From Thermoanaerobacter sp. (GTDB lineage: Bacteria; Bacillota; Thermoanaerobacteria; Thermoanaerobacterales; Thermoanaerobacteraceae), in the NCBI GenBank assembly GCA_014896455.1, contig JADBKJ010000019.1, positions 1-64,000 of the forward strand: DNA of 64,000 nt, in the 5' to 3' direction. Below, piece after piece: positions 7,748-58,724 of this stretch. Under the pieces are notes generated by a model. That model saw only the letters and a program-made list of their open reading frames with translations. It was not told the origin of the DNA and ran no database searches. The translations under genes were made by a program, and so were the position numbers. The stretch's first letter is position 1. Each line of letters opens with the position of its first letter.

Positions 7748-7880
7748 ATGAGACAGTGCGTCGATTGTGCCCGGTACCCTGCCGGAACCCGAAGGTCGAG
7801 CTTAGTTTTGTCGCTTTGGAACATCGGAGTGACGATGCAAAATATCCTATTTTAAAATTTTTGACTTTGTCAACAAGCTG
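7748..7880 (-). repeat. Dispersed terminator-associated repeat, copy 1 (truncated)
   Basis: On the minus strand this is nearly identical to the first half of the element at 22387-22649, from TTGTTGACAAAGT through GATATTTTGCATCGTCACTC to GGTACCGGGCACAATCGAC and CTGTCTCA. Homology ends near 7748, so the second terminal repeat and the matching flanking hairpin are lost. Its intact end again abuts a terminator hairpin (7883-7906). Confidence 0.85.
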
Positions 7881-7882
7881 AG

Positions 7883-7906
7883 ACTATACTTTAGTATAGT
7901 TTTTTT
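7883..7906 (+). terminator. Rho-independent terminator hairpin beside repeat copy 1
   Basis: ACTATACT (7883-7890) and AGTATAGT (7893-7900) form a perfect 8-bp stem, followed by six further T (7901-7906). No intact gene now ends just upstream on the plus strand, so it probably served the gene disrupted here. Confidence 0.7.
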
Positions 7907-21182: not shown

Positions 21183-22352
21183 ATGGAAAACTTTGTTTTT
21201 TCAAGCCCTACAAAAATTATTTTTGGTAAGGGAACAGAATATCAAGTGGGTGAAGAGGTAAAAAAGTATAGCAGCAAAGTATTATTTTGCTATGGCGGAG
21301 GAAGCATAAAGAAATCTGGTCTTTACGATAAAGTTGTAAATTCTTTAAAAGAAGCTGGAGTTGAGTTTATAGAGCTATCAGGTGTAAAGCCTAATCCAAG
21401 GCTTAGTCTTGTGCAGGAAGGAATAAAATTATGCCAAGAAAATAATATAGATTTTATTTTAGCTGTTGGCGGAGGAAGCGTTATTGACACTGCAAAGGCT
21501 ATTGCAATGGGTGTGCCTTATGAGGGAAATGTGTGGGACTTTTTTGCAGGAAAAGCGCAGCTTGAAGAGGCTTTACCTGTAGGTGTCATCTTAACTATCC
21601 CTGCAACAGGAAGTGAGGCAAGCGATGCTACAGTTATTACAAATGAAGACGGATGGTTTAAAAAAGGGTTTCATCATGACTTGATAAGGCCCAAGTTTGC
21701 AATTATGAATCCAGAGCTTACATATACATTACCTAATTATCAAACGGCCTGTGGTGTTGCAGATATTATGGCCCACGTCATGGAAAGATATTTTACAAAT
21801 GTCAAAAATGTTGATTTGACTGATAGGCTTTGTGAAGCTACTTTAAAAACTGTTATAAATAATGTGCGTATTGTGCTAAAAGACCCAACAAATTACAATG
21901 CAAGGGCAGAAATTATGTGGGCTGGTACCATCGCACACAATGATTTATTAAGCACAGGAAGGATAGGAGATTGGGCTTCCCATAGAATTGAACATGAACT
22001 AAGCGCTATTTACGATATTGCTCATGGAGCAGGACTTGCAATTATCTTTCCAGCCTGGATGAAGTATGTATACAAGCATGATATAAATCGTTTTGTACAA
22101 TTTGCTGTAAGAGTATGGGATGTGGACCTACCTTATGAAAACCTCGAAGACATAGCATTAGAAGGTATAAGACGAATGACAGAATTTTTTAAAGAGATTG
22201 GTCTTCCTGTTACCCTTAAAGAAGCAGGCATTTCTGATGACAGATTTGAAGAGATGGCCAATAAATGTACAGACAATGGCAACAAAAAACTCGGCAATTT
22301 TGTAAAGTTAGGGAGAGAAGATGTCATTAATATCTATAAATTAGCAAAGTAG
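21183..22352 (+). CDS. Iron-containing alcohol dehydrogenase (butanol dehydrogenase-like)
   Basis: This 389-residue group III alcohol dehydrogenase has the NAD(P)-binding LAVGGGSVIDTAKAIAMG, and the metal ligands are expected in ACGVADIMAHVMERYF (Asp, His) and IEHELSAIYDIAHGAGLAII (two His). It is most like the single-domain, NADPH-dependent BdhA/YqhD group, which reduces butyraldehyde and other aldehydes. GGGGGAGTG precedes ATG 21183. It appears to stand alone, ending in a terminator hairpin 9 bp downstream that now flanks a dispersed repeat. Confidence 0.85.
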   Translation: MENFVFSSPTKIIFGKGTEYQVGEEVKKYSSKVLFCYGGGSIKKSGLYDKVVNSLKEAGVEFIELSGVKPNPRLSLVQEGIKLCQENNIDFILAVGGGSVIDTAKAIAMGVPYEGNVWDFFAGKAQLEEALPVGVILTIPATGSEASDATVITNEDGWFKKGFHHDLIRPKFAIMNPELTYTLPNYQTACGVADIMAHVMERYFTNVKNVDLTDRLCEATLKTVINNVRIVLKDPTNYNARAEIMWAGTIAHNDLLSTGRIGDWASHRIEHELSAIYDIAHGAGLAIIFPAWMKYVYKHDINRFVQFAVRVWDVDLPYENLEDIALEGIRRMTEFFKEIGLPVTLKEAGISDDRFEEMANKCTDNGNKKLGNFVKLGREDVINIYKLAK

Positions 22353-22360
22353 AATTTCTA

Positions 22361-22386
22361 AAAGTCAGTCATTATTGACTGACTTT
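22361..22386 (+). terminator. Terminator hairpin of the alcohol dehydrogenase (left copy)
   Basis: AAAGTCAGTC and GACTGACTTT form a perfect 10-bp stem around ATTATT. Its T-run has been separated from it by the repeat inserted at 22387. The same 26 bp recur at 22650-22675 with one change. Confidence 0.85.
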
Positions 22387-22649
22387 CAGTTTGTTGACAA
22401 AGTTAAAAAATATTCAAAGGAGATATTTTGCATCGTCACTCCGATGTTCCAAAGCGACAAAACTAAACTCGACTTTCGGGTTCCGGCAGGGTACCGGGCA
22501 CAATCGACGTCCTGTCTCAGGTGCCCGCCTCCGCCCTCCTTGGCTTCGGCCCTGCCTCCACCCTCAGTCTCGCTAAGTTTTGTTGCCGCTTTGTCACAAG
22601 TCGCTCCGATCGCAAAATATCTCCTTTACGAAAGTTTGTCTACAGTCTG
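22387..22649 (+). repeat. Terminator-associated dispersed repeat, copy 2 (complete, 263 bp)
   Basis: The ends are imperfect inverted repeats: CAGTTTGTTGACAAAGTT inward on the left and CAGACTGTAGACAAACTTT inward on the right, each followed a few bases later by AAAGGAGATATTTTGC. The middle is GC-rich, unlike the neighbourhood. Copies lie at 7748-7880 and 58319-58694. It encodes no plausible protein. A near-perfect 26-bp duplication of the local terminator hairpin flanks it, as expected for a target-site duplication. Confidence 0.85.
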
Positions 22650-22679
22650 AAAGTCAGTCATTATTGGCTGACTTTTTTG
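22650..22679 (+). terminator. Terminator hairpin (right copy) with T-run
   Basis: Same hairpin as 22361-22386 with one A-to-G change (GGCTGACTTT), which still allows a G-U pair. It is followed by TTT, so it is the functional terminator end. Confidence 0.85.
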
Positions 22680-37129: not shown

Positions 37130-37149
37130 AATGTACAAATGAATTTGAA

Positions 37150-37372
37150 AATGCAATGAAGTGGAGCAGTAGGCATTGTAAGCTTTAAGAGAGCCGTTGG
37201 TGGGTGCAAAACGGTAGCCTAAGATGCCGAAACTCGCCACGGAGCAGGCATACTGAAGTGTAGTAGGTATGCACGGTTACCGCCGTTACAGGTTTGAGTG
37301 GGCATTATGCCAAAAAGAGTGGTACCACGGAAGTGTAAGTCTTTCGTCTCTTACGGATGAAAGACTTTTTTT
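37150..37372 (+). ncRNA. T-box riboswitch (leucine) upstream of leuS
   Basis: The leader has the conserved AGAGAGCCG-type element near 37190, a GAAACTC segment near 37228 in which CTC (Leu) is the likely specifier codon, and the T-box core AGAGTGGTACCACGG (37316-37330). A terminator follows (AGTCTTTC 37338-37345 with GAAAGACT 37359-37366 and a T-run). Uncharged tRNA-Leu would pair with the T-box and prevent termination, raising leuS expression. Confidence 0.92.
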
Positions 37373-58295: not shown

Positions 58296-58318
58296 AAAGC
58301 TGCGGGAAACCGCAGCTT
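58296..58318 (+). terminator. Terminator hairpin of the nucleotidase gene (left copy)
   Basis: AGCTGCGG and CCGCAGCT pair around GAAA. These 23 bp recur exactly at 58695-58717 on the other side of the dispersed repeat. The T-run is now beyond the right copy. Confidence 0.85.
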
Positions 58319-58694
58319 CAGTTTGTTGACAAAGTTAAAAAATATTCAAAGGAGATATTTTGCATCGTCGCTCCGATGTTCCAAAGCGACAAAACTAAAG
58401 CTCGACCTTCGGGCTCCGGCAGGGTACCGGGCACAATCGGCCTCCTTGCCTCAGGTGCCCGCCTTCGCCATCCATGGCTTCGGCCCTGCCTCCACCCTCA
58501 GTCTCGCTAAGTTTTGTTACCGCTTTGTAACAAGTCGCACCGATTGCAAAATATCTCCTTTGCGAAAGTTTGTCTACAGTCTGAGAGGCTTCGGCCCTGC
58601 CTCCACCCTCAGTCTCGCTAAGTTTTGTTACCGCTTTGTCACAAGTCGCACCGATTGCAAAATATCTCCTTTACGAAAGTTTGTCTACAGTCTG
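58319..58694 (+). repeat. Terminator-associated dispersed repeat, copy 3 (with internal tandem duplication)
   Basis: Ends and body match the repeat at 22387-22649 closely. The last 108 bp of the element (58476-58583, from GGCTTCGGCCCTGCCTCCAC to CTACAGTCTG) occur again at 58587-58694, giving 376 bp in total. Open frames across it are a by-product of its sequence, not genes. Exact 23-bp copies of the terminator hairpin flank it. Confidence 0.87.
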
Positions 58695-58724
58695 AAAGCT
58701 GCGGGAAACCGCAGCTTTTCTCTT
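58695..58724 (+). terminator. Terminator hairpin (right copy) with T-run
   Basis: Exact second copy of the 58296-58318 hairpin, followed by TTCTCTTTT. Together with AGAGAAAAG before the left copy it would rebuild the original, longer stem. Confidence 0.85.

Follow-up and report, generated by a model that had tools for sequence, protein, structure and literature searches.

The window analyzed here, the whole 64,000-nt stretch of Thermoanaerobacter DNA, belongs to a draft genome (G000) of 33 contigs that is 90% complete. A 389-amino-acid open reading frame, which looks by eye like an iron-type alcohol dehydrogenase, stops at position 22352, directly 5' of the first feature under study. There, two copies of a 26-bp terminator hairpin that differ at a single base enclose a MITE (locus 1; Table 1). 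The MITE has imperfect inverted ends and encodes no transposase. Its interior (22387–22649) is GC-rich, and a 263-nt transcript of either strand is predicted to fold as one long hairpin (z -8.8 and -9.6). The coordinates and lengths given for this arrangement in the original prediction are confirmed.

Table 1. Positions of the elements and hairpin copies in the window.
Feature	Coordinates	Length	Strand	Remark
Truncated MITE	7749–7880		-	Retains positions 1–133 of 263; surviving end abuts hairpin
Hairpin adjoining truncated MITE	7881–7902			Identified by eye from sequence
Locus 1, left hairpin copy	22361–22386	26 bp	+	Single hairpin here in 8 of 9 related genomes, the ninth occupied
Locus 1, MITE	22387–22649	263 bp		Ends CAGTTTGTTGACAAAG and CAGACTGTAGACAAAC, resembling the two ends of an IS1182-family IS
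Locus 1, right hairpin copy	22650–22675	26 bp	+	Retains original T-run
Locus 2, left copy of second duplicated hairpin	58296–58318	23 bp		Outward terminator tail kept on minus strand
Locus 2, second MITE copy	58319–58583	265 bp		94% identity to first copy
Locus 2, repeat of the element's own right part	58584–58694	111 bp		108/111 bp aligned
Locus 2, right copy of second hairpin	58695–58717	23 bp		Identical to left copy

At locus 2, exact copies of a different, 23-bp hairpin flank what had been described as a single 376-bp element. The hairpin copies stand, but the element itself measures 265 bp, and the remaining 111 bp repeat its right part. Similar tails follow other MITE copies of the same draft genome, with differing breakpoints, while all 49 sampled copies from other genomes in which both ends were found are 262–267 bp long. 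We therefore read the 111-bp tail as a probable artefact of assembly, a false join. A third, truncated copy abuts a hairpin with its surviving end. The right-end pattern occurs three times in the window against 0.02 expected, which excludes chance. The window also contains a T-box leader RNA (37147–37354, 144.9 bits).

The family is abundant in G000. With 40 of 125 candidates scored, there are at least 60 matches, and at least 40 run to essentially the full length. The end motif CAG..TGT.GACAAA is found there 79 and 89 times on the two strands, whereas its reversed control has 0 occurrences. Matches are present in all 10 genomes of the genus, in G003 weakly (best E 7e-19).

Whole-hairpin duplication at the target

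To define the target, 103 loci were examined: 40 from G000, 50 MITE copies from six relatives, taken from the best matches listed, and 13 IS copies from G006 and G008 (L090–L102). Both ends were recognized in 101 of these, and L014 and L143 were dropped. A flanking direct repeat of at least 12 bp qualified. Such repeats, 16–33 bp long, flank 75 of the 101 copies in seven genomes (G000, 21/39; G005, 17/20; G008, 18/18; G006, 8/10; G001, 6/9; G009, 4/4; G007, 1/1). When left and right flanks were paired between mismatched loci, a repeat appeared in 24 of 2000 pairings, some of which probably stem from shared targets. This within-locus match, together with the single hairpin at empty sites described below, bears out the idea that the flanks come from the target.

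The repeats are built around a hairpin. When the original site is reconstructed, the center of its best hairpin coincides with that of the repeat to within 1 nt in 74 of 75; L110 is the exception, off center. At its three outermost positions the repeat can pair with itself in 53, 64, and 65 of the 75, a figure that falls to 8–39 when the frame is moved by 1–6 nt. Terminator-like context, either a T-rich tail 3' or an A-rich run 5' of the hairpin, accompanies 69 of the 75. The correlation of repeat length with hairpin length is no more than moderate (0.56 for the full potential stem and 0.70 for the GC-closed core); the stems frequently extend into A/T tracts past the cut. The proposal of a non-autonomous mobile element that inserts at terminator hairpins and duplicates the whole hairpin is upheld.

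Related genomes were compared at the same places. The locus 1 MITE is missing at the orthologous site in 8 of 9 relatives (G003 diverged), and its right hairpin copy equals the empty-site hairpin of G008 and G009. G005 carries another MITE copy at this terminator. The place of locus 2 holds one hairpin in G001, G002, G004–G007, and G009, and an unlike hairpin in G003. In G008 the locus 2 terminator is occupied by a full IS, so that MITE and IS are found at the same terminator in different genomes. Across the set, an empty orthologue was found for 9 of the 75 copies in the sequence compared (gaps of -45 to -10, or at least 100). The deficit at the empty site equals the duplication length in six of the nine and is 1–2 nt larger in three. 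A wider comparison lifted the gap limit and took in every copy whose flanks reached 60 bp. It gave 48 copies with an orthologous pair: 10 of the empty type, 41 of the occupied type, and six with other gaps. The tenth empty-type copy, L161, looks recombined. Three of the six other-gap cases were opened; L129 and L145 face other element copies, and the site opposite L162 has paired hairpin copies with a short element remnant between them. The remaining three face G003 or a second aligned piece. In this wider comparison, with these three other-gap cases opened, no orthologous site was found to carry a double hairpin free of any element trace. The check suggested at the outset therefore came out as expected, with a single hairpin where the element is absent.

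A motif search of two 400-kb stretches, from G008 and G009, was run for element lengths of 200–480 and 1450–1700 bp. It paired six elements, one of which is a chance pair of degenerate ends. Hairpin copies flank all five real elements, two of the pairs being imperfect, and for the three that lie in G008 the empty site in G009 is a single hairpin.

These comparisons bear on whether the hairpins could instead be part of the element, or a product of recombination between copies. Some G000 copies do have unlike flanks. Against this, 72 distinct hairpin cores occur among the 75 repeats, and the one-hairpin empty sites refute it; we give this origin virtually no weight.

One terminator was hit three times, by the IS in G008 (32-bp duplication), by a MITE in G000 (30 bp), and by a MITE in G005 (22 bp). 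The three duplications share the same dyad center. Being concentric, they indicate that the cuts shift symmetrically along the stem. This matters for a further explanation, in which a long and loose stagger of about 25 nt falls at A/T steps that chance to flank terminators. The duplications do begin with A in 60 of 75 and finish with T in 63 of 75, and their commonest lengths are 22–26 bp. A loose stagger is nevertheless hard to square with duplications of three lengths at one hairpin, all centered, with the full range of 16–33 bp, and with the collapse of outer-base pairing on a frame shift. We judge it improbable.

Copies without a duplicated hairpin, named beforehand as an argument against the proposal, do occur. 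No qualifying repeat was found for 26 of the 101, and 18 of these are in G000 (of 39). Twelve of the 39 G000 copies share two recurrent, mutually inverted right flanks, and 10 of the 12 are failures. Two more G000 failures, L002 and L006, bear the right flank of window locus 1. Since these flanks belong to other copies, the pattern points to repeat-driven assembly mis-joins for 12 of the 18. In L030 and L151 the missing hairpin copy is located 40–50 bp further on. The G000 copies with a recurrent right flank include L025–L030, L150, L151, L153–L156, and L159. Six G000 failures are left unexplained by mis-joins, one at a contig end and one followed by a tail. In G005, 3 of 20 copies fail, two of them paired copies with an indel. 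The complete genomes contribute 5 failures in 41, three of which are MITEs with decayed or partial copies. The IS copy L090 (G006 399,533–401,098) has a 6-bp repeat (gtgaag) and no hairpin, and looks to sit inside a gene; with no hairpin nearby, it raises the possibility that the enzyme also accepts targets of other kinds. IS copy L093 is frameshifted and has a hairpin on one side only.

The probable parent IS1182-family element

A search for full-length elements with the same two ends and a transposase gene, also suggested originally, identified an IS1182-family IS. The 13 IS copies in G006 and G008 are 1560–1568 bp long, with ends CAGACTGTTGACAAA and CAGTTTGTTGACAAA (pattern CAG..TGTTGACAAA). 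Twelve carry a frame of 491–514 amino acids, and one is frameshifted. The 500-amino-acid frame of L091 scores 496 bits against the IS1182 family model NF033551 of NCBIfam (cut-off 270), and the Pfam models DDE_Tnp_1_6, DUF772, and DDE_Tnp_1 match the transposase above their cut-offs. Among solved structures, there was no sequence match at E up to 1. Members of the IS1182 family are single-gene IS of ~1.3–2 kb with terminal inverted repeats. The parent IS agrees with this in transposase type, in its single-gene structure with terminal inverted repeats, and in size. Hairpin duplications flank 11 of the 13 copies in G006 and G008 and, by eye, all four in G009, which stand outside the 101-copy count, making 15 of 17. 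G000 contains one decayed relic of the family, with the same two ends as its boundaries, and the search of this 90% complete draft turned up no intact IS.

In the 12 G006 and G008 copies other than the frameshifted one, which is outside this count, the transposase frame meets no stop codon inside the IS, and it ends 3–72 nt into the flank. The target DNA therefore supplies the end of the protein, and the C-terminal tails differ between copies.

The MITE shares its ends with this IS. Its left end is identical to one IS end over 16 nt. By eye, 14 of 15 positions of its right end agree with the other IS end, and the distinguishing AC against TT is kept. The MITE thus bears one end of each IS type. 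The longest word common to MITE and IS is 16, so the interior is not visibly IS-derived. An origin by internal deletion of the IS was considered and is, on this count, unsupported beyond the ends. The element behaves as a MITE should, lacking a transposase, sharing ends with an autonomous element, and following the same target rule as that element. From the shared ends and shared targets we infer that the IS mobilizes the MITE. The enzyme that moves it is very probably the transposase of the IS1182-family IS with the same two unlike ends.

The original prediction had suggested, as a possibility, a different kind of enzyme, of the IS110/IS621 or group IIC type. IS110/IS621 elements and group IIC introns favor hairpins or REP sequences. 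A group II intron is also close at hand, since all four IS copies of T. wiegelii Rt8.B1 (G009; L257, L258, L259, and L260, the same copies as L103–L106) carry one of ~650 bp inside one terminal repeat. It lies between CAG..TG and TTGACAAA, in two copies at each end; two of the four were checked for Rfam group II hits. Hairpin copies flank all four interrupted IS copies by eye, and the homing site of the intron seems to be the IS end. It is nested in the IS end, however, and is not the carrier. Group II intron families gave no hit in the window at the gathering score. IS110/IS621 elements use a DEDD transposase with a bridge RNA and lack inverted terminal repeats, whereas the MITE has inverted ends of IS1182 type plus whole-hairpin duplications, and the parent transposase is a DDE enzyme of the IS1182 family by its NF033551 score. 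Movement by IS110/IS621 or group IIC machinery is thus extremely improbable.

Proposed insertion at a folded hairpin

A DDE transposase normally has its two active sites at a set spacing and so leaves a short duplication of almost constant length. In the present copies the duplication ranges from 16 to 33 bp, hairpin-centered all the same, and so offers evidence from nature that joining takes place at a folded target. This suggests that the enzyme reads DNA shape, not sequence. We consider it likely, on sequence evidence, that the MITE is mobilized in trans by the DDE transposase of the ~1.56-kb IS1182-family IS, with both ends joined at the 5' feet of a cruciform and the hairpin duplicated as a result. 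This reading draws on the shared ends and targets, the one-hairpin empty sites, the dyad-centered duplications of variable length, and the presence of the habit in one clade.

In this pathway, the terminator hairpin would extrude as a cruciform. Its 5' feet are 16–33 nt apart on opposite strands in linear DNA and would come to lie side by side at the cruciform junction. The transposase would then join both element ends at these feet. With both 5' feet at the junction, a DDE transposase of fixed spacing could serve hairpins of any length. Gap filling would leave one full hairpin on each side, and the T-run would stay with the right copy.

The same IS and MITE might instead take the hairpin as single-stranded DNA, on the lagging strand or in a transcription bubble, and not as a double-stranded cruciform. 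Terminators are both transcribed and replicated. Folded states are inseparable by sequence, and a dyad-centered duplication is expected either way. From general DDE chemistry, a single-stranded hairpin would offer one 5' foot, whereas duplication would need both strands to be joined. We regard the single-stranded version as rather unlikely and retain the cruciform as the preferred target.

The base that differs between the locus 1 hairpin copies converts a G-T wobble to an A-T pair, relative to the empty site. The G005 copy at this terminator has the same wobble change, but in its other hairpin copy. That the difference records repair of a folded intermediate was considered and is not claimed, because L121 shows the opposite direction and L149 is uninformative.

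The original prediction placed a terminator on both sides of the element. For the plus strand this is too strong, because the left copy loses its U-tract there; the right copy keeps it (at least four T in the six bases 3' of the right copy in 57 of 75). After insertion the left copy precedes CAGTTTGTTG in place of its T-run. With the U-tract kept on the right and lost on the left, the upstream gene probably terminates some 290 nt further downstream; transcripts from upstream would probably read through the element as far as the right copy. A simple terminator scan of the plus strand called the left copy at both loci and did not call the right copy at locus 1. Insertion of this kind would give the element a simple route to spread through terminators at little cost.

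One transposase clade and its known relatives

The habit extends beyond the genus. Elements of six other hosts, with transposases 45–77% identical to that of G006, are flanked by hairpin copies of 16–30 bp. The hosts are an order relative (G023), a Sutcliffiella plasmid, an E. faecium plasmid, an uncultured Bacilli genome, an Erysipelotrichaceae genome, and a Rhizobium plasmid. A tree of 21 rows places the nine that duplicate hairpins on one side of a branch with support 100/99. Outside the genus each of these nine stands for a single insertion, and the trait is therefore thinly sampled for any one row. ISEfa7 of E. faecium, at 54% identity, also falls inside this clade, yet four plasmids show two distinct insertions of it, each with a hairpin on just one side. 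By eye, whole-hairpin duplication is absent from 22 copies of five other IS1182 groups of the relatives. Outside the clade, single plasmid copies of ISCfr1, of Bradyrhizobium and Sinorhizobium elements, and of an IS1272-like element likewise show no whole-hairpin duplication; the ISCfr1 copy has a 6-bp palindromic repeat, and the Bradyrhizobium copy has a hairpin on its left. Three further elements are not placed in the tree. A Paenibacillus element has a broken gene and a 19-bp hairpin duplication in its flanks, L269 (a Clostridia MAG) has hairpin copies with unlike loops, and L267 has no recognizable ends.

On balance, these sequences incline us to a broader reading. A monophyletic group of IS1182-family DDE transposases may gauge its target by DNA structure, joining both ends symmetrically at a four-way junction in the manner of a junction resolvase, so that the palindrome and not the transpososome would set the stagger. 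Such a habit would let the group settle at the terminators of a Rhizobium and several Bacillota, where a complete hairpin and its T-run would remain.

The IS itself has probably been met before. An IS1182-like element is known in Thermoanaerobacter kivui and Caldanaerobacter, together with the megatransposon TnCO-1, whose duplication in T. kivui is reported to start at 1,839,957 (PMC12056078). G006, which is probably T. kivui, has an IS copy at 1,841,581–1,843,146, near that start, and the element of that report is probably the same IS. The sections of the report on this element note the IS and its ends and suggest target-structure recognition across the family, and they describe neither hairpin targeting by the IS nor a MITE. 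Our findings also concern an IS that has been linked to the TnCO-1 rearrangement in T. kivui. The idea that MITE ends form the far end of TnCO-1 was dropped; neither a MITE nor an exact IS end was found in G006 at 1,893,001–1,912,000 and 1,922,001–1,941,000.

The MITE resembles other bacterial MITEs in being short, transposase-free, and intergenic, with inverted ends, a target duplication, and stem-loop transcripts (PMC10969869). The term IS1182 did not come up when that review was searched for it, and its passages on MITEs describe no whole-hairpin duplication. Among the titles and abstract beginnings searched, no paper on whole-hairpin duplication by an IS1182 element was recognized; ISfinder and TnPedia, outside this search, may record it. 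As far as the searched literature shows, the whole-hairpin, dyad-centered duplication is the new part, and the hairpin preference of the IS1182 family was already known.

The closest known systems are IS1272 and TnSha1 of staphylococci, which also combine an IS1182-family transposase with hairpin or terminator targets and no target consensus (PMC5678879, PMC4923244). Furi et al. (2016) described hairpin targets of TnSha1, several of them terminators, with deletion (PMC4923244). In the accounts given there, both elements delete or replace the stem-loop and do not duplicate it, whereas the Thermoanaerobacter element duplicates the whole hairpin. Stem-loop replacement of the IS1272 kind does not describe our copies: 75 of the 101 lie between direct repeats, and the empty sites have one hairpin. 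The IS1272-like transposase of an S. epidermidis plasmid is 27% identical over 259 amino acids and lies outside the hairpin-duplicating clade. Wan et al. (2017) proposed that IS1272 uses the 3' feet of the cruciform and so loses the stem-loop; they also drew a "pathway b", in which joining at the 5' feet would duplicate it (PMC5678879). In the relevant part of that paper, pathway b is a drawn alternative, a hypothesis and not an observation, and its outcome is the outcome found here. The Thermoanaerobacter element therefore matches the 2017 hypothesis for the IS1182 family and is opposite to the deletion by IS1272. With opposite outcomes in two clades of one family, a comparison of their transposases could reveal the part of the protein that sets joining at the 5' feet or the 3' feet.
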